Assembly: GCF_009753675.1 (NCBI RefSeq)
Contig: NZ_WQLV01000007.1
Span: forward strand, 62,001 to 126,000
Reading direction: 5' to 3'
Source of the DNA: Parasedimentitalea huanghaiensis
GTDB taxonomy: Bacteria > Pseudomonadota > Alphaproteobacteria > Rhodobacterales > Rhodobacteraceae
DNA: 64,000 bases
Numbering within the stretch: the first letter of the stretch is position 1; every line of letters starts with the position of its first letter. Position numbers and translations under genes: made by a program. Under the pieces are notes generated by a model, which saw nothing but the letters and a program-made list of their open reading frames with translations, made no database searches and had not been told where the DNA came from. Shown piece by piece: positions 9,942 through 40,159 of this stretch.

Positions 9942-10514
9942 TTAGCCTGTTGCTCCCCATCGCTGCGCAACAGGCGCAGCAACGTTCAGCATATCAATCG
10001 CACGGGCTGCAATTTGGTCCACGATGGCGGCAACATTTTGAGGTTTTAAATAGAAGGCCGGCACGGGTGGCAGAATAACGGCACCCAATTCTGTTGCGGC
10101 CGTCATGTTTCGTAAATGTGCCAGTGTTAACGGGGCCTCGCGGGTCAACAAGATCAGACGTCGACGCTCCTTGAGTTGTACGCTCGCCGCGCGGGTCAAC
10201 AGGTTATCGTCCAAGCCATGTCCAATGGCCGCCAGCGATCGCATCGAACAGGGGGCCACGATCATGCCTGCAACGGGAACCGAACCTGAGGCAATGCTGG
10301 CCCCGATGTCGTCGATGGCATGGCAGCGTGTGACTAAGCCTTGCAAAGTGGCAAGCGCCTGCGCGCCACATTCTGCGTCGAGGGTACGCTCTGCGGCGGC
10401 ACTGGTGACCAGATCAGTTTCAACCTGCATATCTGACAGTTGCCTCGCAATCGACAGCCCCAATGCTGCGCCCGAGGCCCCCGCCACGCCAAGTACAACA
10501 CGCGCCTCGCTCAT
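9942..10514 (-). CDS. ubiX: Flavin prenyltransferase, UbiX family
   Basis: Makes prenylated FMN, the cofactor of UbiD-type decarboxylases, from FMN and dimethylallyl phosphate. 190 aa, with the N-terminal GVAGASGAALGLSIA nucleotide-binding loop, the central MIVAPCSMRSLAAIG and the RRLILLTREAPL region typical of the family. The start codon overlaps the ubiD stop by 4 bp. Pairing with ubiD and divergence from ubiTUV suggests a dedicated decarboxylation step for ubiquinone made without oxygen. Confidence 0.88.
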   Translation of the reverse strand: MSEARVVLGVAGASGAALGLSIARQLSDMQVETDLVTSAAAERTLDAECGAQALATLQGLVTRCHAIDDIGASIASGSVPVAGMIVAPCSMRSLAAIGHGLDDNLLTRAASVQLKERRRLILLTREAPLTLAHLRNMTAATELGAVILPPVPAFYLKPQNVAAIVDQIAARAIDMLNVAAPVAQRWGATG

Positions 10515-12019
10515 CCCCCTGCCCCCGGCATCAGGCGCGCAACCAGATCAGCGGCAAAACCTGCGTCTTCCTCTGACATTCTCATAACCGTGCCCCATTC
10601 TCTGGATGTTTCACTGTCAATTTTTGTGGTGGCATCAATGCCCATCTTCCCAGCCAGACCCGGTTGCGGAGAGGCAAAATCAAGATAGTCCATCGGCGTA
10701 TTATCTAGCAGCATCACATCACGCGCCGGGTCCATCCGGGTGGCCAGAGCCCAGGCAACGTCATCCCAGTTTCTGGGGTCGATATCTTCGTCAACAACCA
10801 CAATCATCTTGGTATAGCTGAATTGTGGCAGCATCCCCCACAGTGCCAACATCACACGGCGCGCCTGGCCCGGATAGCGTTTGCTGATACTGACAACGGC
10901 CATGCGATAGGAGCACGCCGCTGGTGGCAACCACAGATCATGAATTTCCGGGATCTGCGCGCGGATGGTTGGCAGGGCCAGTGTATTGAACACTTCTCCG
11001 ATAATCGCCGGTTCATCTGGTGGGCGCCCGGTATAGGTGGACAGGTAAACGGCGTCTTTGCGATGGGTGATCGCACTCACCTCCAGAACCGGAAAAGGCT
11101 CTGCCGGGTTGTAATATCCGGTGTGGTCGCCAAACGGTCCTTCCGGAGCAAGTTCACTAGGTGAGACCCATCCTTCCAGCACGGTTTCGGCATCAGCGGG
11201 CACCATCAGGGGAACTGTTTTTGCTGGCACCAAACGGGGGCGACTGCCATTCAACGCACCTGCAAATGTCAGCTCGGACACGGATTCGGGCAAGGGAAGT
11301 GCTGCCGAGAGCAACGTCGCAGGATCGGCACCCAAGACCACAGCAACGGGCGTCTTTTCCCCTTGCCGCGCCCAGCTTTGGTGATGCGCCGCACCGCCAC
11401 GATGAGGCAACCAGCGCATGATCAACCTATTGTGGTCCAGAACCTGCGCCCGATAGACACCTGCGTTATAGGTCCCGACCTCTGCGGCCTCGGTTCCATG
11501 GGGGCGCGTCACAACCACTGGCCAGGTTATCAGTGGCCCTGCATCTTGTGGCCAGTGCGTCTGGATCGGCAGAGCCATCAGGTCTACGTCATCACCTTTT
11601 GAGACAACACTCTGCACCTGCGCAGACTTGACGATCTTAGGGCGCGTTGCCAATGCCGCCTTAAGCATCGGCCAGCGCGACAATGCATCCCGCAATCCAT
11701 CTGGTGGCGTAGGTGCCCTAAGTGCCGCCAGAAAAGCCCCAAGATCGTCCAATCCGTCCAATGTCACGCCCAACCCGGCGGCAACCCGCTCGGGTGTGCC
11801 AAACAGGTTCAGCACCACGGGAACTGTCGACTTAGCCCCCCCTATCAGCAGCGGATGGTCAAACTGCAGTACCGGCCCCCGACGTTCAAGCACTGCACGA
11901 TGCACGGCGGTCATTTGGTGGGTCACCGAAACCGGGTCTGGCACATGCTGAAACTGGTCAGACGTGGCGCACCAATCAAGGAAGCTACGAAGGCTGGGAT
12001 ATGAAGGTAAAGTTCGAAT
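10511..12019 (-). CDS. ubiD: UbiD family prFMN-dependent decarboxylase; 5' end and start uncertain
   Basis: Decarboxylates 4-hydroxy-3-polyprenylbenzoate in ubiquinone synthesis, or a related aryl acid. Visible are VLNLFGTPERVA, YNAGVYRAQVLD, ELAPEGPFGDHTGYY with the catalytic Glu region, and a C-terminal DKIDS-like segment. The first canonical start is GTG at 11944 (477 aa), but UbiD-like sequence (YPSLRSFLDWCATSDQFQHV) continues in frame upstream. The frame is closed by TAA at 12035-12037, and no ATG, GTG or TTG occurs between. I therefore place the end at the in-frame ATT at 12019, which has GGAAC upstream, as the likeliest non-canonical start. A sequencing error is the alternative. Overlaps ubiX by 4 bp. 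Confidence 0.78.
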   Translation of the reverse strand: MRTLPSYPSLRSFLDWCATSDQFQHVPDPVSVTHQMTAVHRAVLERRGPVLQFDHPLLIGGAKSTVPVVLNLFGTPERVAAGLGVTLDGLDDLGAFLAALRAPTPPDGLRDALSRWPMLKAALATRPKIVKSAQVQSVVSKGDDVDLMALPIQTHWPQDAGPLITWPVVVTRPHGTEAAEVGTYNAGVYRAQVLDHNRLIMRWLPHRGGAAHHQSWARQGEKTPVAVVLGADPATLLSAALPLPESVSELTFAGALNGSRPRLVPAKTVPLMVPADAETVLEGWVSPSELAPEGPFGDHTGYYNPAEPFPVLEVSAITHRKDAVYLSTYTGRPPDEPAIIGEVFNTLALPTIRAQIPEIHDLWLPPAACSYRMAVVSISKRYPGQARRVMLALWGMLPQFSYTKMIVVVDEDIDPRNWDDVAWALATRMDPARDVMLLDNTPMDYLDFASPQPGLAGKMGIDATTKIDSETSREWGTVMRMSEEDAGFAADLVARLMPGAGG

Positions 12020-15900: not shown

Positions 15901-17046
15901 TCACCCGGCACCCTTCGGTTTCGGTAACGTGCCGTTTTTGTATGCGCTCCAATCTTCGATCTCGGGATAGAACTTTTTGCGCCAAGCCCGGACGCGCGGG
16001 TTGAACACTCGCCGCCACAGAAGCGGGATCATTGCCAGTGCTGTCATCGGCGGATAGCCAGTTGGCAACATCGGAACTTCGCTTTCGTCATAGACCTGCA
16101 ACAGCGGAAAACGCCGCATTGGATGAACATGGTGGTCAGCATGACGTTGCAGATTGATCAACAGCAACCCTGAAACACGGTGTGCTGAATCCCAGGAATG
16201 ATGCGGCCGTACAGGCTCATATTTTCCATCACCCAGATGTTTGCGCGTCAGCCCATAGTGTTCGACATAGTTGGTCAGCTCCAACTGCCAGATCGCAACA
16301 AAAGCCTGAAAAACAAACAGACCCACACCGGCCCAACCGCCAATACCAAATGCGATGGCTAGAAACGTTGACTGTAGCCCGAGATATTTCCAAATAGGAT
16401 TGGACAGATGCCATGGTGAACGTTTGCGCCGGGCCAACATCGCCTTTTCCGCACGCCATGCCGATCCGAAGCCTGTCAGTAAGATACGCGCGTAGGCCCG
16501 GTGAAACCCCTCGTTATAGCGGGCTGTCACAGTGTCACGCGGTGTGCCAACATAAGGATGATGGACCAACAGGTGTTCGGTTCGGAAATGCCCATACAGC
16601 ACCAGCGCCATCAACAGGTCCCCCAACCCGCGCTCGACCCGGTTGGATTTGTGGAACAGCTCATGTGCATAGACTATGCCAACGGTGCCAGTGGTGACGC
16701 CAATACCAAACATGATGCCCAGCGTTTCCAATGTTGAATACTGGCCGACGCGCGTAAGGTAATAGAGCGTTCCAAATACCAAGGCGAATTGTACTGGAAA
16801 CCAAATGCAGGTGAGCAAACGAAACCAAAACAATTCGGCGTCCGGGGTCTCTGGGTCCGGGTTGCGCAGGTCCTTACCCACCACGGCGTCCAGCAAAGGC
16901 ATCAGCACCCAGCCGTAGATTGGGATCAGAAGGATGGTCCACCCCCCAAACAGAACCGCCAGAACCACCAGTGGAACAAAGGTGAGTGTCATCCAATAGG
17001 GCCAGGCGTTTAGCCGTCCCTTGCTATCAGTAGTGGACAGTGTCAT
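15901..17046 (-). CDS. alkB: AlkB-type membrane non-haem diiron monooxygenase
   Basis: 381 aa integral membrane hydroxylase of the alkane 1-monooxygenase/fatty-acid desaturase superfamily. The eight-histidine pattern is present: HELFHK, EHLLVHHPYVGTP, LQRHADHHVHP, with NYVEHYGL between. Such enzymes insert one O atom of O2 into a terminal methyl group and need rubredoxin or ferredoxin; no electron carrier gene is adjacent. The start overlaps the upstream P450 stop by 4 bp (ATGA), so both oxygenases are made together. Whether the substrate is an alkane, fatty acid or a cell lipid cannot be read. Confidence 0.87.
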   Translation of the reverse strand: MTLSTTDSKGRLNAWPYWMTLTFVPLVVLAVLFGGWTILLIPIYGWVLMPLLDAVVGKDLRNPDPETPDAELFWFRLLTCIWFPVQFALVFGTLYYLTRVGQYSTLETLGIMFGIGVTTGTVGIVYAHELFHKSNRVERGLGDLLMALVLYGHFRTEHLLVHHPYVGTPRDTVTARYNEGFHRAYARILLTGFGSAWRAEKAMLARRKRSPWHLSNPIWKYLGLQSTFLAIAFGIGGWAGVGLFVFQAFVAIWQLELTNYVEHYGLTRKHLGDGKYEPVRPHHSWDSAHRVSGLLLINLQRHADHHVHPMRRFPLLQVYDESEVPMLPTGYPPMTALAMIPLLWRRVFNPRVRAWRKKFYPEIEDWSAYKNGTLPKPKGAG

Positions 17047-18542
17047 GTGCCGCTCTCCTTGTTGATCTTTTCCGCCCGTCGGGTCAGGCGCAACCGAATA
17101 CCATTGGCCGAACGCACGGTAAGCTGAGCGGCAGGTATTGGCGTATCCCCCTCGACCAGCTCAAACCGATAGGCCCGCACCAGCATCGACAGAAGCAACA
17201 CACCTTCCGCCATCGCAAAGGCCGAACCGGGGCAAACCCTAGGGCCTGCTGAAAACGGGATGTAGGCCGACCGCATGCATTCCTTGCCGTTAGGGGTATC
17301 AAACCTGCCCGGATCAAATTCATCAGGTCGATCCCACAACCGTTCATGACGATGCAAATGCCATGGGCTAAGAATAACCTGAGAGCCGCGCTTGACTTCA
17401 CGGCCGCGAAACTGTTCCGGACAGGCCGCCTCGCGGACATACATCGGCACTGGGGGGTACAGACGCATTGCTTCGCGAAAGACAGAACGAGAATGGCGGA
17501 GTTTGGACAGCGTTGAGAAATAAATTTTCTCGGGCTCCATCGTCTCAAGTGCCTCCGCCGCCAGTTTATTCTGCCACTCAGGATAGCGCGCTATCAGATA
17601 CAGCGCCCAGGCCAGTGCAGCAGCCGAGGTTTCGTGCCCGGCAAGAAAGAAAATCGCGACTTGGTCAATCATCTCTTCGGTTTCAAACACCTTGCCGGTT
17701 ACGGGATCTGGGGTGATCATGATCTTGGTTGCCAAGTCATCTGGGGCGGTGCCATCGGCAATAGCGCAGGCGCGCTGCTGGGTCAGTTGTCCAATCAGCG
17801 CACGGATTCTACGGGCCGTTTCCTTGGTTTGGCGTGAATGGAAACGAGGAAACCACTGCGGCAGCGGTAGTATGGCTGCAACATTAGCAACCGGTTGTGC
17901 CGCCTGATGCTGGCGAAAGGCCTCAAACGCTGCGTTTGCAATTTCATGTTCAATGGGCACCGAAAACAAGGTGCGAAAGATCACATCCATTGCGAGGTGA
18001 CTGGTCTGAGCCTCAATTTCCACCGGGGAACCATCCGCCATGGGCTTCAGCCGTTGAACGGCCGCAACGCCGCTGTCCCACATAGACGGGAACACCTTGC
18101 GAATTCGACCTCCTTCAAATGCCGGATCTATGATCCGACGCTGACGTGCCCAAGTCTCACCATTCGAGATGAAAACCGACTCCCCCAACAGCGGCTTCAG
18201 ACCAACCCGGATGCGTTCGGATTTTGGAAAATCTTGCGCTCGTTGCTTCAGAACAAGATCGACCAATGCCGGATCATTGCACAAGTATGATCGAAGGAAC
18301 GGCGTTCGCATTTCAGCCATCCAGGCGCGATACAAATGCGCAGGCTGGGCCGACAGAATGTCCTTTTTGAATTGCCGGAAATAGGTCCAGAGAGAGACCC
18401 GCCCCTGTCGTGACGCAGGCTTAGGCGGTGCATCTGGCAGTCTGATCAGGTCATGGTCCAGCAATTCGGTTTCCCCGATTGTGAAAATGGTCAAAGTTGG
18501 ACGATTTTCTCTTGGCCTCTGGGTTTTGTAATTGACGATCAT
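17043..18542 (-). CDS. Cytochrome P450
   Basis: About 500 aa soluble bacterial P450. Counting from the in-frame TTG at 18545: I-helix AGHET 302-306, ExxR 358-361 (REAMR), haem loop FSAGPRVC with the axial thiolate Cys438. All core motifs are intact. The start is uncertain. The first ATG is at 18542 with no clear Shine-Dalgarno, and an anaerobox (18532-18545) lies on top of it; similarity to P450s is convincing only from about LIRLPDAPPKP onward. It is the first gene of a two-gene operon with the AlkB-type hydroxylase, divergent from the fnr gene. Confidence 0.88.
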   Translation of the reverse strand: MIVNYKTQRPRENRPTLTIFTIGETELLDHDLIRLPDAPPKPASRQGRVSLWTYFRQFKKDILSAQPAHLYRAWMAEMRTPFLRSYLCNDPALVDLVLKQRAQDFPKSERIRVGLKPLLGESVFISNGETWARQRRIIDPAFEGGRIRKVFPSMWDSGVAAVQRLKPMADGSPVEIEAQTSHLAMDVIFRTLFSVPIEHEIANAAFEAFRQHQAAQPVANVAAILPLPQWFPRFHSRQTKETARRIRALIGQLTQQRACAIADGTAPDDLATKIMITPDPVTGKVFETEEMIDQVAIFFLAGHETSAAALAWALYLIARYPEWQNKLAAEALETMEPEKIYFSTLSKLRHSRSVFREAMRLYPPVPMYVREAACPEQFRGREVKRGSQVILSPWHLHRHERLWDRPDEFDPGRFDTPNGKECMRSAYIPFSAGPRVCPGSAFAMAEGVLLLSMLVRAYRFELVEGDTPIPAAQLTVRSANGIRLRLTRRAEKINKESGT

Positions 18543-18545
18543 CAA
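18532..18545. promoter_or_regulatory. FNR/FnrL anaerobox at the P450 start
   Basis: TTGAC-GATC-ATCAA. It covers the first possible P450 start codons (TTG 18545, ATG 18542). If translation begins there, bound Fnr would block transcription downstream of the promoter. If the real start is further in, the box could instead sit at -41.5 of a start near 18497 and activate. Confidence 0.75.
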
Positions 18546-19738: not shown

Positions 19739-19769
19739 CTATTAGTTCGGTAGGTAGACGAACTAATAG
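19739..19769. promoter_or_regulatory. ROK-type operator upstream of the ROK regulator
   Basis: Perfect 11-bp arms (CTATTAGTTCG at 19739-19749 and its complement at 19759-19769) around a 9-nt spacer, 10 bp before the GTG start. Its length and TTAGTTC/GAACTAA arms fit operators of XylR/NagC-type ROK repressors. Position over the promoter/leader implies autorepression relieved by a sugar-like effector. Confidence 0.7.
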
Positions 19770-19778: not shown

Positions 19779-20993
19779 GTGCTTGATCAATCCAACCTAT
19801 CGCGACGCATGACACTCAGCTCGGTTGTTCAGGCCATCACATCCTATGGCCCCATATCGCGCGCAAGCGTCGCCAAGATGACGGGCCTATCCAAACAAAC
19901 AGTTTCGGAGATTGTGTCCTCGCTTGAAAAAGATGGTTGGGTACAAACCGTTGGGCGTACCGAAGGAAATGTCGGTCGCCGCGCAGTGGTGTATGAAATT
20001 GTGCCCGAGGCCGCGCTGGTTGCCAGTGTCGATCTGGGTGGAACCAAAGTACGCACCGCCCTATGTGACCTAACTGGAAAAGTTGTTGCTGAAATGGTTG
20101 AGCCCACCACTCAAAGCGGTGGTGAAGCTGTCGTTGATCAAATCGGGCGTCTTATTCTTGAAACCGCCACATCTCATAATATCGAACAAGAAAAAATTCG
20201 GGTTGCAGTTGTTGGAGTACCCGGTGTCCCCGAGGCTGAAACAGGCCATGTAAAAATGGCCCCCAATATCAAGGGCGTCGATGCGGTCAATTTCCCCGAA
20301 CTGTTGAATGAGCGGCTTGGCATTGAGGTCCTTGTCGAGAACGATGTGAATCTGGCGGCTCTGGGTGAACACTGGATGACCCATCAGGGCGACAAAGATG
20401 ATCTGGTCTATCTATCAATTGGCACAGGAATTGGTGCTGGTGTTGTCATCGGCGGCAAATTGGTACGCGGCGCTTCTGGCGCAGCAGGCGAGGTCGGATT
20501 TTTGCCTTTTGGAGCTGATCCGTTTGAGGAAGACAGCAAAACAACAGGTGCTCTGGAACGGGTTTCAGCAACGCAGGCGATCACCAGCCATTATTTCCAA
20601 CTAACCGGCACCAACAAAAACGTCCCTGCTGTATTTGACGCGGCCCTCGCCGGTGATGCCCACGCTAAACAGGTTCTGGAAACCGTTGCCAGCTATATCG
20701 CACGCGCTGTGGTTGCAATCGCATCGGTAATTGATCCAGCCTGTGTTATCATCGGCGGCTCCATCGGCGCACGCGAAGAGCTGGTCAGCCTGATCAAGCC
20801 AGAAATTGACCGCTGCTTCCCCCGCTCTATTCCGGTTGAACCTTCTATTCTGGGCAATCACGCCGCCCTTGCAGGCGGCACCTCCATTGCCCTGTCGCGC
20901 CTCCACATTGCCCTGTTTTCAGGCGGTCTTCCGGGGGCACAAATTGTCGTTCCACCACCCCATGTCAAAACCTACCTTGAGGACGTGACATGA
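19779..20993 (+). CDS. ROK family transcriptional repressor
   Basis: 404 aa. N-terminal winged helix (ISRASVAKMTGLSKQTVSEIV) followed by the ROK/actin-like ATPase fold with DLGGTKVRTAL, VENDVNLAALGEH and IGTGIGAGVVIGG. The usual zinc-binding cysteine cluster of ROK proteins is absent; the region reads GEVGFLPFGADPFEED. GTG start; the stop overlaps the next gene by 4 bp (ATGA), so the repressor is cotranscribed with the operon it probably controls through the dyad at 19739-19769. The effector is likely a sugar or amino sugar, judged from the transporter class. Confidence 0.88.
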   Translation: MLDQSNLSRRMTLSSVVQAITSYGPISRASVAKMTGLSKQTVSEIVSSLEKDGWVQTVGRTEGNVGRRAVVYEIVPEAALVASVDLGGTKVRTALCDLTGKVVAEMVEPTTQSGGEAVVDQIGRLILETATSHNIEQEKIRVAVVGVPGVPEAETGHVKMAPNIKGVDAVNFPELLNERLGIEVLVENDVNLAALGEHWMTHQGDKDDLVYLSIGTGIGAGVVIGGKLVRGASGAAGEVGFLPFGADPFEEDSKTTGALERVSATQAITSHYFQLTGTNKNVPAVFDAALAGDAHAKQVLETVASYIARAVVAIASVIDPACVIIGGSIGAREELVSLIKPEIDRCFPRSIPVEPSILGNHAALAGGTSIALSRLHIALFSGGLPGAQIVVPPPHVKTYLEDVT

Positions 20994-22255
20994 TCAACGA
21001 GACTATAAATTCCAAGTTACGAGCAGCCCAAGACAATCTTGCAGATGTTGAATTGCTGCAGGCAGCAATAGGCAAGCAAAGCATAACAGGCTCCGAAGCT
21101 AACTTTGTTAAGCATCTGCAAGAAGTCTTGGCGGTTACTGGGCTAGAACCTATCACTGGTGAATTCCTGCCGGGCCGCCCAAACATTTGGGGTCAGCGTA
21201 AAGGGTCCGAACCCGGACCCAACCTGATGTTTGTCGGCCATACAGATACGGTAAACGTACAGGGCTGGTCCGAAGCCTGGGCAGGTCAAACTCGCGAGAA
21301 CCCGTTTGGCGCTGTCGAAATTGATGGTGAAATCTGGGGGCGCGGAGCCTGTGATCTCAAAGCTGGAATCTGCGCCTCACTGGCGGCGTTGCGTTTGTTG
21401 GATGCTGCCAACATCAAACTACGAGGGCAAGTTTCATTTGCCTTTATCGGTGACGAAGAAAGTGGTGAACCCGGACTGGGTGTCAGCGCCGGTGCCAAGG
21501 ATCTTGTGCAACGGGTCAAACAGGGTGAAATCTCGACACCCGATTTTGCGATCTATGTCGAACCAACCAAGCTCAACGTCTACACCGCACAAATTGGCTT
21601 TTTCATCGCCGATATCAAAGTGACCGGAAAGTCAGCTTATTTTGGCACCCCAGAGGATGGGGTTGATGCCTTGAAAGCGAGCCACAAAATCCTGTCCGCT
21701 CTTTGGCAGCACGAAGAAGAGCTCACGTCTGGTCCAGCACATGATTTTGTCGGCCCCTCAGGAATTTTGGTGACTGACATCAAAGGCGGCGGATACATTG
21801 CCGTCCCCGGTCAGTGTTCGTTGTCGGTCATTCGTAAACTACGCCCTGGTGAAGAGCTGGACAAAGCCGTTGCCCAGTTTGAAGAGGTTGTAAATTCAGC
21901 AGACTTAAGCGACGGGATTTCAGTAGAAATGGAATACCCCGCCGGCCGGGATCATCCGTTTGGTGGCTCACCTGTTGAAATCGACCCAAACCATGACGCC
22001 GCGCGTTTGCTGGCCGAATGCGTCCAACAAGAGCACCCTAGTGGAGGCCAGATTGGTGGTGCCCCCTATTGGTCAGAGGCGCCGTTTCTGGTGAACGAAA
22101 TTGGCTGCCCAACGGTCTACTGCGCACCGGGCGACATCAGTGTCGCCCACACATTCAATGAACGCGTCAATGTCGATGAATATCTGGCAGCAGTCCGTTC
22201 ATTTGCCCTGTTTATGGTTGCCTACTGTGGCACCGAGACAGGCAACGAAGAATAA
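20990..22255 (+). CDS. M20 family metallohydrolase (ArgE/DapE/ACY1-like)
   Basis: 421 aa zinc-dependent amidohydrolase. Visible metal/catalytic motifs: FVGHTDTV, GRGACDLKAG (bridging Asp), IGDEESGEPG (general base Glu), IYVEPT and the late AHTFNERV His. Enzymes of this fold remove acyl groups from amino acids or small peptides. ATGA overlap with the ROK gene; 14 bp before the binding-protein gene. In this operon it may deacylate an imported conjugate (inference). Confidence 0.87.
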   Translation: MINETINSKLRAAQDNLADVELLQAAIGKQSITGSEANFVKHLQEVLAVTGLEPITGEFLPGRPNIWGQRKGSEPGPNLMFVGHTDTVNVQGWSEAWAGQTRENPFGAVEIDGEIWGRGACDLKAGICASLAALRLLDAANIKLRGQVSFAFIGDEESGEPGLGVSAGAKDLVQRVKQGEISTPDFAIYVEPTKLNVYTAQIGFFIADIKVTGKSAYFGTPEDGVDALKASHKILSALWQHEEELTSGPAHDFVGPSGILVTDIKGGGYIAVPGQCSLSVIRKLRPGEELDKAVAQFEEVVNSADLSDGISVEMEYPAGRDHPFGGSPVEIDPNHDAARLLAECVQQEHPSGGQIGGAPYWSEAPFLVNEIGCPTVYCAPGDISVAHTFNERVNVDEYLAAVRSFALFMVAYCGTETGNEE

Positions 22256-22269
22256 CAAGGAGGAACTCA

Positions 22270-23325
22270 ATGAAACATCTAACAAAAACCTGCCTGTCTG
22301 CTGCGGCCTTTGCGCTGGCCACCCTGCCAGCTTTGGCCCAAACCATGGGACCACAGGGCGAAACTGCCACCCCATCCAATGTCGTTGCCGTTGCAGACGC
22401 CGATGTCGAAGCCGTGCGAGCGGGCAATCACACTGCCGCCCTGTTGTGGCACGATCAGTCCGATTTTGTGAACGCCGTGACCGCCGGTGCCACTGCCGAA
22501 TTTGAACGCCTGAACATCAAAGTGGTTGCGACCACAAGCGCCGGATTTGATGCCGCCAAACAGCGTAGTGATATTGAAACTGTTTTGGCCAAAAATCCCA
22601 GCATCATCCTGTCACTTCCTCTTGACCCTGTAACTTCGGCTGCGGCTTTCGAAGAAGCCAAATCCGAAGGCATCAAACTGGTGTTTCTGTCTAACTTGCC
22701 CTCTGGATATGAGCACCCTGCCGACTATGCGGCTATTGTGACCGATGATCTGTTCCAGATGGGCAAACAGGCGGCGGATGCACTGGCCAAATCAATGGGT
22801 GGGACCGGCACGGTAGGCTGGATCTATCACGATGCCAGCTATTATGTCACCAATCAGCGCGACAACGCGTTTAAAACAACCATTGAAAACGACTATCCAA
22901 ACATCTCGATCGTTGCTGAACAGGGGATCACCGACCCTGCCCGCGCGGAAGAAATTGCCAATGCTATGTTGCTACGCAACCCAGACCTTGGCGGCATTTA
23001 CGTCACCTGGGCTGGCCCAGCCGAAGGTGTACTGGCGGCCCTGCGTGCAAATGGTAACAAAACCACCAAGATCGTAACGCTGGATTTGTCCGAACCCGTT
23101 GCGCTAGACATGGTCCGTGGCGGCAACGTTGCGGCGATCATCGCAGACGAGGCTTATGAACTGGGTCGTGCAATGGCTGCTGCTGCTGTTCTGGACCTGT
23201 TGGACCAAGACGTGCCCCCATTTGTAGTGGCTCCTGCTGTCACGGTTACAGCTGACAACGTCGCCGAAGGCTGGATGCAGTCCCTGCATATCAACGCTCC
23301 GGCAAGCCTGACAACCAGCAACTAA
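22270..23325 (+). CDS. Sugar-type ABC transporter substrate-binding protein
   Basis: 351 aa periplasmic receptor of the Peripla_BP_4 (RbsB/FrcB) type. Signal peptide of about 24 residues (ALATLPALA cleavage region). Mature fold marks: TAALLWHDQSDFVNAV, ILSLPLDPVTSAAAFEEAK, VGWIYHDASYYVTNQRDNAF and GGIYVTWAGPAEG. SD AAGGAGGAA just upstream. It is followed by a stem-loop and by the remnant of a second binding-protein gene. Confidence 0.9.
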   Translation: MKHLTKTCLSAAAFALATLPALAQTMGPQGETATPSNVVAVADADVEAVRAGNHTAALLWHDQSDFVNAVTAGATAEFERLNIKVVATTSAGFDAAKQRSDIETVLAKNPSIILSLPLDPVTSAAAFEEAKSEGIKLVFLSNLPSGYEHPADYAAIVTDDLFQMGKQAADALAKSMGGTGTVGWIYHDASYYVTNQRDNAFKTTIENDYPNISIVAEQGITDPARAEEIANAMLLRNPDLGGIYVTWAGPAEGVLAALRANGNKTTKIVTLDLSEPVALDMVRGGNVAAIIADEAYELGRAMAAAAVLDLLDQDVPPFVVAPAVTVTADNVAEGWMQSLHINAPASLTTSN

Positions 23326-23336
23326 ATCAAGAAATT

Positions 23337-23367
23337 GCCCAGCAGAAAAAGTCACGTTCTGCTGGGC
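23337..23367 (+). terminator. Stem-loop after the binding-protein gene
   Basis: Perfect 11-bp arms (23337-23347, 23357-23367) with a 9-nt loop, 11 nt after the binding-protein stop. No U-tract, so it is more likely an mRNA-stabilising or partially terminating element that raises binding-protein output relative to the permease. Confidence 0.7.
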
Positions 23368-23368
23368 G

Positions 23369-23473
23369 GTTGCCCCGTTCCCTGTGGTAGATGCACTGAC
23401 CATTGGACCAAACAACGTGGCGGATCTCTGGGTGAAATCCCTGCACTCCGAAGCACCCAAAAGCCTGCGCTGA
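23369..23473 (+). pseudogene. Vestigial 3' end of a second substrate-binding protein gene
   Basis: Reading from 23369 to the TGA at 23471-23473 gives 34 codons whose product resembles the last 34 residues of the upstream binding protein: 17 of 34 positions agree, including NVA, W, SLH, AP and SL in order. There is no start codon or upstream homologous sequence. I read it as the tail of a paralogous receptor gene that once stood between the first receptor gene and the permease and was removed by deletion. Confidence 0.75.
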
Positions 23474-23548
23474 TTACACTCTTCTTGCCTTCTTGCGAGG
23501 GGCATGAGCGCCCCTCATTCCTGCAAACACCGACTCTGAAAGACTGAC

Positions 23549-24502
23549 ATGACCCGCGTCACCTCACGCCTGAACGGATTGGACTTCCAGCAAGCGGTTG
23601 TCTATTTCGGCTTCCTTGCCATTTTCCTGTTCTTCGCCGTCACCCTCTATGACGATGGGTTTCTGACCCAGCGAAATCTGACAAACATCGTGCTGCAAAC
23701 AGCACCTGCCACGATCATGGCTATTGGACTGGTCTTTGCCCTGTCCGCAGGCGAAATCGACCTCAGTTTCGGGTCCATCGTTGCAGTTTCTGCATTGTCC
23801 TGTGCAGTCATATTACAGGATTACCCACTACCCTTCGGCGTTGCTGTAGGTCTGGGCGTTGGCATGGGTATCGGAGCCTTCAACGGTGTCCTGATTGCAT
23901 ATTTGAAACTGCCTTCGTTCCTGGTCACTTTAGCCACCATGGGTCTGTTTGCAGGCATCGCTCGCTCGATGACCGACCTGCGGTCCATTCCAGTAATGAA
24001 CGATACATTTACGGGCATCTTTGGCTCCGGCAAATTGTTCTCAGTCCCGTCTCTGGTGATATGGACAGTGATCGGCGTTGCCGTTGGCCATCTGATCTAC
24101 CGCCATACCCGATTTGGTGCCCATGTTCTGGCCACCGGAGACAATCCCCGCGCCGCACAGGTGTCAGGCATCAAAGTACCGCGCGTGCGTCTGTACGTCA
24201 TGATGATCTGCGGCGGCTGTGCCGGTTTGGCCGGGTTGCTCTATGCCGGACGCCTTCAGGCCGCGAAATACACCCTGGGTGAAAGTGACCTGATGACCGT
24301 GATCGCCGCTGTAATCGTAGGTGGCACTGCCCTAAACGGAGGAAAAGGCTCAGTTATCGGCGCCCTGCTCGGCTCACTCCTGATGGGGATGCTGAACAAT
24401 GGACTGATCTTGATGAACCTCAAGGTCTCCGATCAGATGATCGTCCGAGGCCTCATCATTCTCGTCGCCGTCGCTCTGTCGCTGCGCGACAGCAACCGCT
24501 AA
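23549..24502 (+). CDS. Sugar-type ABC transporter permease
   Basis: 317 aa membrane protein of the RbsC/FrcC class with about eight to ten membrane segments. Marks: AIGLVFALSAGEIDLSFGS near the N-terminus and the coupling loop GDNPRAAQVSGIKVPRVRL. Only one permease gene is present, so the channel is probably a homodimer. 75 bp after the receptor remnant and 14 bp before the PLP-enzyme gene. Confidence 0.9.
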   Translation: MTRVTSRLNGLDFQQAVVYFGFLAIFLFFAVTLYDDGFLTQRNLTNIVLQTAPATIMAIGLVFALSAGEIDLSFGSIVAVSALSCAVILQDYPLPFGVAVGLGVGMGIGAFNGVLIAYLKLPSFLVTLATMGLFAGIARSMTDLRSIPVMNDTFTGIFGSGKLFSVPSLVIWTVIGVAVGHLIYRHTRFGAHVLATGDNPRAAQVSGIKVPRVRLYVMMICGGCAGLAGLLYAGRLQAAKYTLGESDLMTVIAAVIVGGTALNGGKGSVIGALLGSLLMGMLNNGLILMNLKVSDQMIVRGLIILVAVALSLRDSNR

Positions 24503-24516
24503 GAAAGGAGCAGGAA

Positions 24517-25728
24517 ATGTTTCTCGACACTCTCATACGCCGCAACCCAGCTTTTATCGAAGCTGCCATGGAGCTGCATCAACAAGGTAAGATCCCGGCC
24601 AACTCATATGTGCTTGACCTCGACACCGTTGAACGCAACGCTAAAACTTTTTCTGAGACCGCAACCAAACTGGGACTTAAAACCTTTGCCATGACCAAAC
24701 AGGTCGCCCGGCATTCTGGATTTTGCCAGGCCTTGATCCGTGGCGGCATTGCGCGGTCGGTTGCCGTGGATATGGATTGTGCTGTCGCCTGCCATCGCGC
24801 GGGGTTAAAAACCGGCCACCTTGGCCACTTGGTACAAGTACCGCGCGGCGGCGTAGACTTTGCCGCCAGCCAGCTCAAACCGGACTACTGGACCGTGTTT
24901 AGCCACGACAAGGCAAAGGAAGCAGCGGCAGCTGCGGCCAAAGCCGGTCGCGTTCAGAACATTTTGGCCCGCATCCAAACGCAAGGCGATACCTTCTATC
25001 GCGGTCACGAGGGCGGATTTGCAGCCGAAGATATCTGTGAAGTCGCAGATCAGATTGATGCGCTGGAGGGCGCGCGTTTTGCTGGCATCACCACCTTTCC
25101 AGCCCTGTTGTTTGATCTGGAAAGCCGCAGCGTCAAACCAACACCCAATCTGGACACCCTGAAACGAGCGGCAGCAGCGCTGGCTGCGGCAGGTCGCACC
25201 GACATTGAAATCAACGCTCCTGGCACCAATTCGGCAGCCGTCCTGCCTGCCCTTGCTGCGGCAGGCGCCACCCAATGTGAACCCGGCAATGCGCTGCATG
25301 GCACCACACCGCTGCACGCAATGGAAGATCTACCTGAAGAGCCGGCGGTGTTGTACCTGTCCGAGGTTTCTCATCAACACGGCGGCAATGCATTTTGCTT
25401 TGGCGGAGGTCTGTATGTTGATCCGGTGTTTCCGAAATATGATGTAAAGGCGCTTGTATCCTCGCAACCAACCAGCGCCCGCAAGGATCTGGCCAGTGTA
25501 GAAATCCCCGATTATGCTGCCATCGACTATTACGGCATGATCGATGCAACTGGGGATGTGAAACCCAAAACCGGCGACACCGTTGTCTTTGGCTTTCGCG
25601 GTCAAGCCTTTGTCACCCGCGCCAATGTGGTTGGCGTTTCGGGCGTTTCCAGCGGAAACCCGCAGGTCACCACCATCGAAAATATCTTCGGACAGGCCGT
25701 TGACTGGCCAGAAAAGGCTTTGTCATGA
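24517..25728 (+). CDS. YhfX-like PLP-dependent protein (fold type III)
   Basis: 403 aa with an alanine-racemase-type N-terminal barrel. It resembles E. coli YhfX along its length as I recall that sequence: start MFLDTLIRRNPA, HQQGKIPANS, AMTKQ with the probable PLP Lys61, HLGHLVQVPRGG, TVFSHDKAKEAA, EINAPGTNSA, CEPGNALHGTTP, YLSEVSHQHGG, CFGGGLYVD. The reaction of the YhfX family is not known to me; fold relatives racemise or cleave amino acids. Placement inside an ABC-transport operon with a SIS protein points to catabolism of an amino compound. SD AAAGGAGC; 3' end overlaps the ATPase gene (ATGA). Confidence 0.82.
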   Translation: MFLDTLIRRNPAFIEAAMELHQQGKIPANSYVLDLDTVERNAKTFSETATKLGLKTFAMTKQVARHSGFCQALIRGGIARSVAVDMDCAVACHRAGLKTGHLGHLVQVPRGGVDFAASQLKPDYWTVFSHDKAKEAAAAAAKAGRVQNILARIQTQGDTFYRGHEGGFAAEDICEVADQIDALEGARFAGITTFPALLFDLESRSVKPTPNLDTLKRAAAALAAAGRTDIEINAPGTNSAAVLPALAAAGATQCEPGNALHGTTPLHAMEDLPEEPAVLYLSEVSHQHGGNAFCFGGGLYVDPVFPKYDVKALVSSQPTSARKDLASVEIPDYAAIDYYGMIDATGDVKPKTGDTVVFGFRGQAFVTRANVVGVSGVSSGNPQVTTIENIFGQAVDWPEKALS

Positions 25729-26465
25729 CTGCTGAACAAAACGTGTTGTCCCTGACCAATATTCACAAGGCATTTGGCGGTGTTGTCGCTATTCAAGACT
25801 TCTCTCTGAACCTGAAGGCAGGCGAAGTGGTAGCACTGGTTGGAGACAACGGCGCGGGTAAATCCACCCTGATCAAGATCGTGTCCGGGGTTTATACCCC
25901 AACATCGGGATCAATCGAGTTGGACGGCGAAGAAACATCCTTCAGCGATGCCAGTTCTGCCCGCAGCAAGGGTATCGAAGTGGTCTATCAGGACTTGGCT
26001 CTGGCAGATCAACAGCCGGTATTCATGAACATGTTTCTGGGTCGTGAGCTAACCAAACCACCGTTTGGCTTGTTGGATAAGGACCGTATGCGACGCGAGT
26101 CGCAAGAGCTGGTGGACGAGTTGGATGTGCGCATTCCCTCAGCAAGCTCGACAATCAGCCAGCTGAGTGGTGGCCAGCGGCAGGGCATCGCTATTGCCCG
26201 TGCCACCCATTGGGCCAGCAAACTGATCTTGTTAGACGAACCCACCGCTGCACTTGGCGTCGCGGAAACCGCCCGGGTCGAAGACCTAATCGAGAATCTC
26301 AAGAAAAAGAACCTCGCCATTCTGATCATCAGCCACAGCCTGGATCAGGTGTTCCGCCTTTCCGACCGGATTTGCGTGCTGCGCCGTGGTCAACAGATCG
26401 GCATTCGAGAAACCGCAAAAACCGACAAAAACGAAATAGTCTCAATGATCACCGGAGTCGCCTGA
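25725..26465 (+). CDS. Sugar-type ABC transporter ATP-binding protein (single domain)
   Basis: 246 aa with one ATPase domain, as in FrcA-type systems, not the double-domain RbsA type. Walker A GDNGAGKS, signature LSGGQRQ, Walker B LILLDEPTAALG, H-loop IISHSLDQV. With the receptor and permease upstream it completes the importer. Confidence 0.93.
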   Translation: MTAEQNVLSLTNIHKAFGGVVAIQDFSLNLKAGEVVALVGDNGAGKSTLIKIVSGVYTPTSGSIELDGEETSFSDASSARSKGIEVVYQDLALADQQPVFMNMFLGRELTKPPFGLLDKDRMRRESQELVDELDVRIPSASSTISQLSGGQRQGIAIARATHWASKLILLDEPTAALGVAETARVEDLIENLKKKNLAILIISHSLDQVFRLSDRICVLRRGQQIGIRETAKTDKNEIVSMITGVA

Positions 26466-26466
26466 T

Positions 26467-27504
26467 ATGGATACGAAAATGATTGGCACCATAATGGCAC
26501 GCGAAGTGGCTGAGATCCCCGAGGTCCTGCACCGTCAGGTCCAACAAGGACTGGACAGCTACCTTTTAGCTGGTCGGCAAGCAGCCCGAACAAACCCCCG
26601 TGGTTTTGTGACCTGCGCACGCGGGACATCCGATCATGCTGCAACTTTTTTCAAATATGTGATGGAAACCCGGACAGGACTGCCTGTGACCTCCATCGGG
26701 CCATCAATTGCCTCGGTCTACAAGACACAGTTGAAATTGCAGGATCTTATTTGCATAACAATCTCGCAATCGGGGGGCAGCCCCGACCTGGTTGCCTTAC
26801 AGGCAGCAGCAAAACAGGGTGGCGCGCAAACACTTGCGTTTTTGAACGAAGCCGATAGCCCCGTTGGCGGATCTGCTGACATGGTTCTAGACGTTCTTGC
26901 CGGACCAGAAAAAGCGGTTGCCGCAACCAAGTCGTTTGTCAGCACCCTGTTTGCCATCCTTGGTTTTGCCGCTGGCTTTACCGATGACACCGAGTTAGAA
27001 TCAGCCCTGCGCAGTTTTCCCGATGTCTCCAAACTCGCCTTGAACAAAGACTGGAGCAACGCCCAACTGTCACTGGCTCGCGCTGGATCCGTGTTTACGG
27101 TTGGTCGTGGACCCGGTTTGGCTGTTGCAGCTGAAGCAGCACTGAAATTGAAAGAAACCTGCCGGATTCACGCCGAGGTGTTCTCAGCCGCCGAGCTTCT
27201 TCACGGACCTGTAGTCTTAGCTGACAACCGGTTTGCGAGCCTGGTTTTTGATAGCCAAGACGAAACACAAGAGTCAATTCGGGCAGTAATCCAGACCATG
27301 ACCGAGCGTGAAGCCGCAGCATTTGTGGTGACCCCTCTTGCAGACAGTCCCGACCATCTGGATGTTCCAGATGTAAATCACCCGTTGTTGCAACCACTGG
27401 TCCAGATTATTGGATTCTACAAATTCGTAGAAAAACTGGCCTGCAATCTTGGTGAAAATGCTGATGCGCCAAGTGGCTTGAACAAGGTCACCGTGACCGT
27501 CTGA
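26467..27504 (+). CDS. Tandem SIS-domain sugar isomerase/deglycase-like protein
   Basis: 345 aa with two SIS domains, like the C-terminal isomerase half of glucosamine-6-phosphate synthase (GlmS) without its glutaminase domain. Relatives include AgaS and FrlB, which act on amino-sugar phosphates or fructosamine phosphates. Marks: ARGTSDHAATFFKYV, SQSGGSPDLVALQ, ATKSFVSTLFA, GRGPGLAVAAEAALKLKETC, HAEVFSAAELLHGP. It begins one base after the ATPase stop. A role in breaking an amino sugar or glycated amine is plausible. Confidence 0.87.
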   Translation: MDTKMIGTIMAREVAEIPEVLHRQVQQGLDSYLLAGRQAARTNPRGFVTCARGTSDHAATFFKYVMETRTGLPVTSIGPSIASVYKTQLKLQDLICITISQSGGSPDLVALQAAAKQGGAQTLAFLNEADSPVGGSADMVLDVLAGPEKAVAATKSFVSTLFAILGFAAGFTDDTELESALRSFPDVSKLALNKDWSNAQLSLARAGSVFTVGRGPGLAVAAEAALKLKETCRIHAEVFSAAELLHGPVVLADNRFASLVFDSQDETQESIRAVIQTMTEREAAAFVVTPLADSPDHLDVPDVNHPLLQPLVQIIGFYKFVEKLACNLGENADAPSGLNKVTVTV

Positions 27505-37279: not shown

Positions 37280-37296
37280 AGCTGAACCTTGGATGT

Positions 37297-37310
37297 TTGT
37301 TTTATCGCAA
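37297..37310. promoter_or_regulatory. NnrR/Dnr-type box upstream of the second nnrS
   Basis: TTG-N8-CAA dyad TTGTT-TTAT-CGCAA. It is centred 63 bp before the nnrS ATG; a class II start would lie near 37345 with TATTGT (37333-37338) as -10. Consistent with NO-dependent activation by the Dnr-type regulator encoded just downstream. Confidence 0.6.
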
Positions 37311-37366
37311 GGTCGCAACGGTTCCCGTTCGCTATTGTGAAGCAAACAGATCTCAGGAGCTTTCAA

Positions 37367-38569
37367 ATGTCGACCTCTACCGCCCAGCAGATGCGCCAAT
37401 GGCATGGGCCTGCGCTCCTGTCCTATGGATTTCGACCCTTCTTTCTGCTGGGCGCTTTGTGGGCTGGGCTGGCCATGGTGCTGTGGATCCTGAGCCTAAC
37501 AGGAACTCTATCCCTGCCATCCGTATTCGACCCTGTCAGCTGGCACGCTCATGCCTTGCTGTTTGGCTATCTTCCCGCAATTGTTGCCGGTTTCATGCTA
37601 ACAGCAGTGCCGAACTGGACAGGACGCCTACCAGTGGTGGGCTGGTCCCTTGGGGGGCTGGTGGTGCTGTGGGTGCTGGGCCGACTTGCGGTTTTGTTTT
37701 CTTCCGCGCTGCCACCTTTGTTGGTGGCACTGGTGGACCTGTCCGCAATGGTCGCATTGGCGACGGTCATGACCCGCGAGATCGTGGCTGGTAAAAACTG
37801 GCGCAACCTGATCGTACTAGCAATGCTGGCCCTGTTGGTCCTGGGTAACGCCGTATTCCATATTGAGGCCGCGCGCGGCGAATATGCGGCCAAAGGATAT
37901 GGTCTGCGTATCGGACTGGCAGCTGGGGTCTTGATGATCTCAGTCATCGGTGGGCGTATCGTCCCATCGTTCACCCGCAACTGGTTGGTTAAGTCCGGTT
38001 CTGACGTCCGTCCTGCACCACCAATGCAGAAGTTCGATAAGCTGGTGTTACTGTATTCAGTTTTTGTGCTGGGGTTCTGGGTGGCACAGCCCGATAGCCT
38101 GTATGCCGGAGCAGCGTTCCTGTTGTTTGGTGTATTGCATGCCGTCCGATTGGCGCGCTGGTGTTCGCTGCAGACCCGGTCCGAGCCACTACTATGGGTG
38201 CTGCATCTTGGGTATGGCTTTATCCCCTTAGGCGCCTGGGGTCTTGGCACCGCGATCCTTTGGCCCAGCGCGATCTTGCCTGCCGCAGCCCAACATATCT
38301 GGATGGGCGGCGCGCTGCCGCTAATGACAGTGGCGGTAATGGCGCGTGCCACCCTGGGTCACTCCGGCAACGTACTAAGTGCAGGTCCGGGCACTGTGGC
38401 AGTGTTTCTAACCGTTCCAGTTTCAGTTATCGCCCGTGTTGCCGCTGGAGTTTGGCCCACTGGTGCCGAGACACTCTATCACCTTGCGGGCACAGCCTGG
38501 ATACTGGGCTTCCTTGGGTTTGTAGTAATTTACGGCCCGATGTTGCTGTCCCGGCGCCCACCCAACTGA
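37367..38569 (+). CDS. nnrS: NnrS family membrane protein (second copy)
   Basis: About 400 aa, twelve or so hydrophobic segments. The start at 37367 (MSTSTAQQ) has AGGAG 9 nt upstream. Family marks: YGFRPFFLLGALW, WHAHALLFGYLPAIVAGFMLTAVPNWTG and VIGGRIVPSFTRNW. It sits before the Dnr-type regulator and nor cluster, as in many denitrifiers, and is linked to NO stress; exact chemistry unsettled. Confidence 0.92.
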   Translation: MSTSTAQQMRQWHGPALLSYGFRPFFLLGALWAGLAMVLWILSLTGTLSLPSVFDPVSWHAHALLFGYLPAIVAGFMLTAVPNWTGRLPVVGWSLGGLVVLWVLGRLAVLFSSALPPLLVALVDLSAMVALATVMTREIVAGKNWRNLIVLAMLALLVLGNAVFHIEAARGEYAAKGYGLRIGLAAGVLMISVIGGRIVPSFTRNWLVKSGSDVRPAPPMQKFDKLVLLYSVFVLGFWVAQPDSLYAGAAFLLFGVLHAVRLARWCSLQTRSEPLLWVLHLGYGFIPLGAWGLGTAILWPSAILPAAAQHIWMGGALPLMTVAVMARATLGHSGNVLSAGPGTVAVFLTVPVSVIARVAAGVWPTGAETLYHLAGTAWILGFLGFVVIYGPMLLSRRPPN

Positions 38570-38664
38570 CGAAGACCTCTCGTGTGAGACACTCTACCCT
38601 TGGAATTCAAGCGCAGCAGCGATAGGCAAGCAGTGACACTTATCGCTAGGCGAAGGGCCCCGCT

Positions 38665-39369
38665 GTGCTGCAAAAACTCGATGAAAGCTTGCTGACGCAT
38701 CTGCCGCCGTTTGCGAAACTGCACCGCAGCCAGATCCGTGCAATTCTGGATCAGGCCAGCTCCAAACGGTTCGACCCCGAACTGACAGTGTTTAGCGAAG
38801 GTGAAACGGCCGAACGGTTCTATATGCTACTGGACGGCTACATCCGGGTCATCCGCATCACCCCGGATGGCGAACAGGTAATTGCCCTGCACATACCAGC
38901 TGGCCAACTCTTTGGGATTGCCCCTGCAATTGGACGAGAAAGCTACCCCGCGACTGCAGTGACCGCAGCCGAAAGCATTATTCTGTCTTGGCCCACCAGA
39001 TTGTGGACTGACTTCAGTACCAACTATGATGGTTTTGCTACCGAAACCTACAAAACACTAGGTTCGCGTATCGGCGAAATGAACAATCGTATCCTAGAGA
39101 TGGCCACTCAGCATGTAGAGCAACGGGTCGCTAATGCGCTGTTGCGGCTGATCAACCAAACTGGCCGCAAGACAGAAAACGGAGTTGAGATTGACTTTCC
39201 TATTACCCGACAGAATATTTCTGAAATGACTGGAACAACCCTGCACACAGTCAGTCGTTTGCTCAGTGCCTGGCAAAAGCAGGGAATTGTCGAAAGCCAA
39301 CGCAAGCGGGTCATGGTGCGTCAGCCACATCAACTGGTAGAGCTGGCCCAAGGCCCTCTCTCCTCTTAA
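38665..39369 (+). CDS. Crp/Fnr-family NO-responsive regulator (Dnr/NnrR type)
   Basis: 234 aa, GTG start with AAGGG upstream. cNMP-binding-like sensor domain (residues about 20-140) and C-terminal winged helix. There is no cysteine in the whole protein, so no Fe-S cluster; Dnr/NnrR proteins are thought to sense NO through haem. The recognition helix TTLHTVSRLLS has His194 where the FNR paralogue has Glu, with Ser197 and Arg198 kept. This matches TTG-N8-CAA boxes, two of which flank this gene. Its 3' end overlaps the opposite DUF1858 gene by 59 bp. Confidence 0.87.
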   Translation: MLQKLDESLLTHLPPFAKLHRSQIRAILDQASSKRFDPELTVFSEGETAERFYMLLDGYIRVIRITPDGEQVIALHIPAGQLFGIAPAIGRESYPATAVTAAESIILSWPTRLWTDFSTNYDGFATETYKTLGSRIGEMNNRILEMATQHVEQRVANALLRLINQTGRKTENGVEIDFPITRQNISEMTGTTLHTVSRLLSAWQKQGIVESQRKRVMVRQPHQLVELAQGPLSS

Positions 39370-39532: not shown

Positions 39533-39619
39533 GGTAAGATCCGGATTATCAAAGCAATCGATCAGACGTCCCTCCCTTTGCCAACTCCTGTTACTAGCGA
39601 CAACAATAGCTCCGCAACG

Positions 39620-39633
39620 TTGTGCTAGAACAA
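39620..39633. promoter_or_regulatory. NnrR/Dnr-type box upstream of norC
   Basis: TTGTG-CTAG-AACAA (TTG-N8-CAA). It is centred about 69 bp before the norC ATG and 94 bp before the DUF1858 start, so it may control both directions. Confidence 0.6.
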
Positions 39634-39695
39634 CCTTGGTGCATCCGACCTGCGTTAGGAGTCTTTTTAGTGAAATCTAAAAAGGAAGCCCCGTA

Positions 39696-40148: not shown

Positions 40149-40159
40149 GGAGAGAGATA

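Follow-up and report, generated by a model that had tools for sequence, protein, structure and literature searches.

What does a bacterium take up with an operon that joins a ROK-family regulator, an M20 hydrolase, a sugar-class ATP-binding cassette (ABC) importer, a YhfX-like pyridoxal phosphate (PLP) protein and a SIS protein? Such an operon occupies positions 19779 to 27504 of the 64,000-nucleotide stretch of Parasedimentitalea huanghaiensis DNA analysed here (contig NZ_WQLV01000007.1, positions 62,001 to 126,000), which we call the window. We propose, with a probability of roughly 0.46, that the operon mediates the substrate-induced uptake and degradation of an N-acylated (or N-aminoacylated) 2-amino-2-deoxy sugar to glucosamine-6-phosphate. 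We favour this reading because the gene block is conserved, an operator precedes it and few other operator sites were found, the SIS protein keeps its key residues, a class I NagB can take the place of the SIS gene, deaminases co-occur with the operon, and an actinomycete cluster combines YhfX with a kinase-like ROK protein and a SIS protein. The component families are known, whereas to our knowledge the combination of genes, the displacement evidence and the role proposed for YhfX are new; the first-pass annotation of this DNA knew of no described pathway with this gene set, and none appeared in the titles and abstract openings covered by our literature search.

Organisation and conservation of the operon

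Seven tightly packed open reading frames lie on the + strand, with junctions of -4, 14, 223, 14, -4 and 1 bp between successive genes. Their coordinates, strand and Pfam families agree with the first-pass annotation, of which the layout is amended in four respects: an operator is added, the ATPase has a single domain, the SIS gene is accessory and a second binding-protein gene has been lost. The features are as follows.

19739 to 19769, no strand: operator of the ROK regulator, a perfect 11-bp inverted repeat CTATTAGTTCG-N9-CGAACTAATAG, 9 bp 5' of the ROK start codon
19779 to 20993, +: ROK-family regulator with helix-turn-helix and ROK domains, 404 aa, GTG start
20990 to 22255, +: M20 amidohydrolase/deacylase, 421 aa (PF01546 and PF07687)
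22270 to 23325, +: ribose-class periplasmic binding protein, 351 aa (Peripla_BP_4, PF13407)
23326 to 23548, +: scar of a lost second binding-protein gene, from comparison with locus L010
23549 to 24502, +: ABC permease, BPD_transp_2, 317 aa (PF02653)
24517 to 25728, +: YhfX-like fold-type III PLP protein, 403 aa (Ala_racemase_N PF01168 and YhfX-like_C PF21279)
25725 to 26465, +: ABC ATPase with a single ABC domain, 246 aa (ABC_tran, PF00005)
26467 to 27504, +: SIS protein of NagB-II/GlmS type, 345 aa, accessory gene (SIS, PF01380)

Scanning genome contigs with the YhfX protein, we kept 80 loci out of 135 encoding a relative; nearly all are alphaproteobacterial by record title, and one belongs to a metagenome-assembled genome (MAG) named Blastopirellula. 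Left-hand genes were counted in loci whose left flank exceeded 6 kb (71) and right-hand genes in those with a right flank above 3.2 kb (73), nine and seven of the 80 being dropped for short flanks. ROK and M20 genes are each present in 70 of the 71 loci; all 71 have the permease and either one (32 loci) or two (39 loci) binding-protein genes. The ATPase is present in 73/73, followed by a SIS gene in 22. The stretch from ROK to ATPase is thus a six-gene block conserved beyond chance co-location, and the earlier description of a single operon is upheld. The locus without M20 and ROK (L024) has a transposase upstream. Other genes are far less regular: the next commonest family, a 128-aa reverse-strand reading frame, occurs in 12/80 loci and all others in at most nine. 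Ten variable genes that were checked comprise one NagB, one serine hydroxymethyltransferase-like piece, three without Pfam match and, for the remainder, a transposase, an amidohydrolase, and M48, DAO and adenylosuccinate synthetase proteins. The locus of a close relative, Zongyanglinia marina DSW4-44 (L010), is 92-97% identical to the window over the aligned stretches. Within the phylum, 11 of 398 genomes had a YhfX match, and gene contexts were compared for eight of these.

The operon of Ruegeria TM1040 runs from ROK to ATPase and has no SIS gene. In this strain (L090:1419-4167), genes for γ-aminobutyrate transaminase and succinate-semialdehyde dehydrogenase lie directly upstream of ROK on the same strand; this link was not used, as both genes are absent at the other annotated operon-bearing locus compared.

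The M20 protein matches its Pfam family with 100.8 bits and the ArgE/DapE model TIGR01910 with 170.4 bits, below the cut-off of 217.6, and it carries the motifs GHTDT, DLK, DEES, EPT and HT, which we take to be the M20 metal-site motifs. Among plasmids, 12 of the 14 matching records hold the subfamily at 54% identity or more, the other two matching at 31% and 29%, and all 12 accessions are also among the 19 records with YhfX. Judged by these matches, the subfamily seems private to this operon.

The ROK regulator and its operator

The regulator matches PF00480 (168.2 bits) and, well below the cut-off of 650, the NagC equivalog NF047937 (150.3 bits). ROK kinases carry a GExGH motif; at this position the regulator of the window has GEVGF. 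A consensus operator, TTAGTTCG-N9-CGAACTAA, was found with at most 3 mismatches in 16 positions 5' of ROK in 74 of 76 upstream regions, these being the usable ROK starts out of 82 sequences (the 80 loci, L090 and L094). Shuffled upstream regions gave no site (0/76), the best shuffled site always having at least five mismatches.

When 24 genomes were searched with at most two mismatches, 21 had one site, two had two and one had none, and in each of the 23 genomes the best site was the one just 5' of the operon's ROK gene. Since a reversed control pattern matched 0 to 13 times per genome, extra single sites would be at chance level. With three mismatches allowed, the window's own genome yielded seven places against 17 for the reversed control, hence no excess that would point to a regulon beyond the operon. 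Since these searches found little elsewhere, the unit looks self-contained; the ROK protein most likely controls only this operon, to judge from its sites, in which case whatever is peculiar to the pathway would be expected within the operon.

On contig C35 of the same genome, near 57008 (L186:4009), the same half-sites occur with a 5-base spacer (TTAGTTCG-N5-CGAACTAA) flanked by two divergent genes, one of them IclR-like by eye; given this spacer and neighbour, the site is probably another regulator's. Another of the seven operator-like places lies near 139555.

A probable deaminase in the last position of the operon

The SIS protein scores 288.2 bits with the NagB-II model NF046059 (cut-off 430) and 168.5 bits with GlmS models, also below cut-off. 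In an alignment of 23 rows, counting rows with letters at the position, Ser100, Gln101, Ser102, Ser105, Lys227, Lys229, Glu230 and His246 are kept in 22/22 and Lys340 in 21/21; these are presumably the GlmS catalytic and phosphate-binding residues. The SIS protein is probably a glucosamine-6-phosphate deaminase.

A protein unrelated to SIS can fill the same slot. In L020, L023 and L029 a class I NagB follows the ATPase; the one from L023, which was scored, matches PF01182 and passes the TIGR00502 cut-off (263.7 against 236.9 bits). In a tblastn search with it, these three were the only matches among the 80 loci, L020 being 81% identical. The slot hints at glucosamine-6-phosphate as product of the pathway and so narrows the choice of substrates to be considered for YhfX, M20 and the binding protein.

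Loci with an empty slot would, on this reading, need a deaminase elsewhere. Thirty SIS-less genomes, hand-picked to spread over genera, represent 29 of the 51 SIS-less loci and L022. A NagB-II-type SIS at E 1e-50 or better was found in 27 of them, none scoring above the family cut-off. Two Maritalea genomes without one (G076 and G077) have a class I NagB above cut-off, and in the third (G069, with locus L022) the contig ends before the slot. With L022 and L023 set aside, all 28 empty-slot genomes hold a candidate deaminase elsewhere, one being a 183-bit match. As a control we used a sample of 61 relatives' genomes, six with a strong YhfX match and 55 others; a class I NagB had to exceed the family cut-off to be counted, as in the operon-bearing genomes. 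NagB-II was found in 6/6 of the former, and a deaminase in 18/55 of the latter (16 NagB-II and two class I NagB, one of which, in G013, has a stop inside the match); within the same family the figure was 15/31. The Fisher tests, which used the groupings 29/30, 28/30 and 6/6, ignore lineage and genome size. In 13 SIS-bearing genomes, a count that, like the SIS tree, omits operon SIS proteins shorter than 300 aa (2/22), the operon SIS is the only NagB-II found in six and the only deaminase of either kind in four, all MAGs.

The scores bear on another substrate, a glycation product, which the first-pass annotation had also entertained. Here an Amadori or Heyns amino acid would be imported and SIS would be a deglycase, as deglycases act in the known fructoselysine and glucoselysine systems. 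In the frl system the deglycase is a SIS protein and the permease is of APC type. The SIS protein of the window reaches only 30.3 bits with the fructoselysine-6-phosphate deglycase model PRK11382 (cut-off 430), against the 288.2 bits for NagB-II; a class I NagB shares its slot, no kinase or NagA was found in the 80 loci, and glycated amino acids offer no amide to M20. We consider this substrate very improbable, and this part of the earlier proposal is not supported. The gfr system described in PMC12675984 is a fructoselysine/glucoselysine system with deglycases.

Predicted chemistry of the YhfX-like protein

The YhfX-like protein exceeds the Pfam cut-offs of both its domains (PF21279 94.2 bits, cut-off 27; Ala_racemase_N 64.0 bits, cut-off 24.1). 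Its predicted structure (mean pLDDT 90.5) is closest to E. coli YhfX, 4kbx (Z 50.0, root-mean-square deviation 2.1 Å over 384 residues, 40-41% identity), a structure that has been solved since 2014. Titles and abstract openings, with most subscription journals outside the collection, held no functional study of YhfX, of the yhf genes or of this gene combination. The next folds are D-threonine aldolases (Z 28.1-26.7) and β-hydroxyaspartate aldolase (26.6), followed by a tied group of dehydratases, decarboxylases and racemases at Z of about 25-26. For D-threonine aldolase, β-hydroxyaspartate aldolase and D-serine dehydratase the individual matches are 7yqa_B (Z 28.1, 3.3 Å/349 residues), 4v15_B (27.0, 3.2 Å/339), 6qkb_A (26.6, 3.3 Å/342) and 3anv (25.5, 3.6 Å/345), at 13-18% identity, and the 3-hydroxy-D-aspartate aldolase (BhcC) model NF045642 gives 19.6 bits against a cut-off of 690.

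Lys61, in an invariant MTKQ stretch, would by analogy be the lysine forming the Schiff base with PLP. Together with His104, Glu283, His286, Tyr300, Tyr338, Arg361, Gln363 and Arg368 it is invariant in 81/81 operon rows and in 10/10 divergent YhfX members, among which 59 residues in all, Lys61 included, do not vary. D-threonine aldolases and D-serine dehydratases have an H-x-C/D metal motif in the C-terminal domain. We did not see this motif, looked for by eye in the alignments, in the C-terminal stretch R361-x-Q363-x-F-V-x-R368, and we would therefore expect chemistry of the racemase or epimerase type rather than a metal-assisted aldol or dehydratase reaction.

What such chemistry could do in an amino-sugar pathway admits a specific, though unlikely, proposal: YhfX may be a PLP-dependent amino-sugar enzyme, for instance a hexosamine C2-epimerase converting mannosamine to glucosamine. 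M20 would have to strip the N-acyl group first because PLP needs a free amine at C2, and the hydrogen at C2, next to the C1 aldehyde, has sufficient acidity for a racemase-type reaction. Our literature search for a PLP-dependent hexosamine 2-epimerase gave nothing on the point.

The same fold neighbours, E. coli YhfX apart, act on amino acids, and this favours a different use of the protein. An amino acid amide-linked to glucosamine might be imported and split by M20, YhfX then racemising or otherwise using the freed, perhaps D-, amino acid while the glucosamine half goes to the deaminase. This conjugate is a possible but doubtful substrate, on which both the genomic contexts of YhfX and the binding protein bear.

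YhfX in other genomic contexts

In an unannotated record of the actinomycete Embleya (L091), read from its open reading frames and NCBIfam matches, five genes follow each other in the order ROK regulator, APC-type permease, YhfX, kinase-like ROK protein and NagB-II-like SIS (178.5 bits, cut-off 430). The Embleya YhfX is 41-45% identical to alphaproteobacterial YhfX and 34-38% to those of yhf operons, and it groups with the alphaproteobacterial branch, not with yhf, in a midpoint-rooted tree with long branches. The cluster of five contains no hydrolase gene, so that YhfX seems to act there directly on the amino sugar, without a released amino acid; this argues against the conjugate.

Outside these loci, in six genomes of another class of the window's phylum, in Vibrio halioticoli and in Cetobacterium, YhfX accompanies YhfT, YhfU and varying phosphotriesterase-like or phosphopentomutase-like partners. 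Although the window protein belongs to the same PLP family as E. coli YhfX, it sits, with Embleya, on a separate, long branch and in other company: yhf-type operons hold YhfT, YhfU or YhfZ with mostly YhfW- or YhfV-like partners in varying sets, whereas the window has ROK, M20, an ABC importer and a deaminase. Profile searches of its neighbours found no YhfT, YhfU, YhfV, YhfW or YhfZ beside the window YhfX, and a search of two alphaproteobacterial loci (L141 and L142) with the Cetobacterium yhf set found none. A phosphotriesterase-like hydrolase is a frequent companion of YhfX in yhf-type operons, joined in Cetobacterium by an amidase, which is again in line with the conjugate. In Cetobacterium somerae (L092:2994-11357) the yhf operon has, besides the extra amidase-family gene, one for a class V aminotransferase-like PLP protein, so that YhfX occurs there with a second PLP protein.

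These contexts also help to judge a reading in which sugars play no part, namely that N-acyl-D-amino acids are scavenged by the importer, deacylated by M20 and racemised by YhfX to the L-amino acid, SIS being an unrelated passenger. Importer, deacylase and racemase would make a complete pathway, one that fits the 51 of 73 loci without SIS. We nevertheless hold it to be improbable, given that SIS starts 1 bp after the ATPase gene in the window and a non-homologous NagB takes its slot in three loci, that Embleya has SIS with a kinase-like ROK protein, and that most of the closest binding proteins encoded elsewhere belong to sugar-type operons.

The importer and its ligand

The binding protein and permease have CUT2-type domains (PF13407, 137.2 bits; PF02653, 143.9 bits). 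The ATPase departs from the two-domain CUT2 form of about 500 aa, matching only the first half of sugar-importer models of 492-513 aa; single-domain exceptions exist among CUT2 importers. The predicted structure of the binding protein (mean pLDDT 90.4) is ribose-class, and the nearest solved structures bind ribose and other sugars. Viral glycoproteins and a T-cell receptor also appeared among the search results with weak scores, which we put down to chance.

The closest plasmid-borne binding proteins outside the operon, from eight regions, are 37-46% identical. Their operons, whose content is of levoglucosan type, resemble ours in having an ABC importer (8/8) and a ROK regulator (4/8); they differ in their Gfo/Idh and sugar isomerase/epimerase genes (7/8) and in ATPases of about 500 aa (8/8), where the window has M20, YhfX and a half-size ATPase. 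The levoglucosan lgd pathway is described in PMC7676230. Levoglucosan as ligand was put aside, the operon being without lgd-type enzymes and the pocket positions being different.

The window protein and five further operon copies were compared with 11 proteins of the related regions, and acidic substitutions fall at positions that align with sugar contacts. Trp247, Arg197 and Asp272 are kept in the operon proteins, which have Asp293 and Ala248 where all 11 related proteins have Gln and Asp, respectively, and Asp94 where these have Lys, Arg, Thr or Ser. At position 141, copy-1 rows (window, L036 and L071) have Ser and copy-2 rows (L010_2, L036_2 and L045_2) have Asp. An additional acidic residue at a site that usually binds a neutral sugar suggests a cationic group on the ligand, and an aminoacyl or free-amine sugar thus appears favoured over a simple N-acetyl sugar. 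For the conjugate these added acids are the best argument: Arg197, Asp272 and Asp293 would fit a ligand with a free amine, as would Asp94 and Asp222 if they face the pocket.

Uptake of a plain sugar such as ribose or fructose, the PLP and SIS genes being incidental, would suit a ribose-class importer whose closest solved relatives bind ribose or other sugars. It is a far-fetched reading for an operon in which M20 accompanies YhfX in 70 of 71 loci. The pocket speaks against it too, with Ser141 and Asp293 in the window protein at the places of Asp89 and Gln235 of E. coli RbsB.

The 223-bp gap behind the binding-protein gene records a loss. L010 has a second binding-protein gene at L010:6913-7962; relative to L010 the window lacks about 1016 bp and retains only the end of this gene, and its alignments with L010:6827-7962 share 16 bases where they meet. 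A deletion of roughly 1 kb has thus removed the second copy. L011, with a YhfX 96% identical, likewise has a single binding-protein gene, so that copy 2 may be lost often, or its loss may be shared.

Proposed pathway and evidence that weighs against it

In the pathway that we favour, the ROK repressor would occupy the palindrome 5' of the ROK gene and leave it on binding the substrate or a product. The importer, made up of binding protein, permease and half-size ATPase, would bring in the substrate, of which M20 would hydrolyse the amide to give a free amine. YhfX would bind this amine as a PLP aldimine and convert it, yielding glucosamine if it acts on the sugar itself; a kinase encoded elsewhere (in Embleya perhaps the kinase-like ROK protein of the cluster) would form glucosamine-6-phosphate, and SIS, NagB or an unlinked deaminase would convert this to fructose-6-phosphate and ammonia. 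An acylated or aminoacylated amino compound, as the first-pass annotation had suggested, is a probable substrate, and its amino-sugar connection gains support from NagB in the SIS slot of three loci, from deaminase co-occurrence and from the Embleya cluster.

The window's own genome has two other operons (L174 and L175) with NagB-II-type SIS, importers and, by eye, kinase-like genes, so that a kinase may be available. These operons of N-acetylglucosamine (GlcNAc)/glucosamine type share with ours an ABC importer, a regulator (of ROK type in L174, by eye) and a NagB-II-type SIS; they have kinase-like genes and, in L175, a NagA-like one, again by eye, where the window operon instead has M20, YhfX and a ribose-class importer. 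A GlcNAc transporter, nagTUVW, has been described in R. pomeroyi (PMC10130141).

Several points weigh against the proposed pathway. The first concern the SIS gene, which the earlier gene set included: this holds for the window, but no SIS gene lies beside the ATPase in 51 of 73 loci. The deaminase label is weak because SIS and all NagB-II matches found score below the NCBIfam cut-off, two of the 27 in SIS-less genomes being weaker still (198 and 183 bits). The NagB of L029 is matched in two frames and so is broken there by a frame change, L020 and L023, adjacent to each other in the YhfX tree, may represent one event, and the idea that SIS was recruited several times was dropped, the SIS tree being compatible with one origin and showing no independent recruitment. 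Deaminase co-occurrence is confounded by lineage and genome size and compares samples that differ; among same-genus relatives without the operon, 5/5 have NagB-II, a finding that slightly lowered the probability we assign to the pathway. Queries with NagA and sugar kinases matched nothing in the 80 loci except the ROK regulator itself and, with no kinase in or near the operon, the phosphorylation step would rest on unlinked genes. We know of no fold-type III PLP enzyme that acts on an amino sugar, and the acidic substitutions in the binding protein suggest a cationic ligand, unlike a simple N-acetyl sugar. The Embleya arrangement is a single record. On pNGR234b of S. fredii NGR234 (L185:8632-12051), finally, a permease piece is followed by YhfX, ATPase and SIS, and ROK, M20 and binding protein were not found beside them; the locus looks like a decayed or rearranged operon.

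Surrounding genes

The upstream neighbour of the operon is a regulator, Crp/Fnr-like by eye, and an SDR gene lies 293 bp downstream; scans for promoters upstream and terminators downstream found none on the + strand. Elsewhere in the window, a membrane protein resembling fatty-acid desaturases/AlkB adjoins a cytochrome P450 at 15901-18545 (-), a possible alkane hydroxylation pair judged by eye from the translations, and a UbiD-family decarboxylase is encoded at 10511-11944 (-). At 37289-44240 the gene for an NnrS protein precedes those for a COX1-type oxidase subunit and for a 634-aa protein with no strong Pfam match; by eye these look like nitric-oxide or denitrification genes. The Rfam family Cis8_sRNA matches at 46134-46261 (+; 93.2 bits, cut-off 58), antisense inside a TctA-family transporter gene at 45785-47350 (-).

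Conclusions

The operon would join the inducible amino-sugar operons that are served by ABC importers. The substrate of the YhfX family, for which no function was found in the literature covered, becomes testable. If YhfX were indeed a hexosamine epimerase, fructose-6-phosphate could be reached from N-acyl hexosamines by a second route, one based on PLP, and fold-type III PLP chemistry would extend to a sugar. Since many alphaproteobacteria of sea and soil carry these genes, an amino sugar or conjugate that has so far gone unrecognised may commonly serve them as a nutrient.

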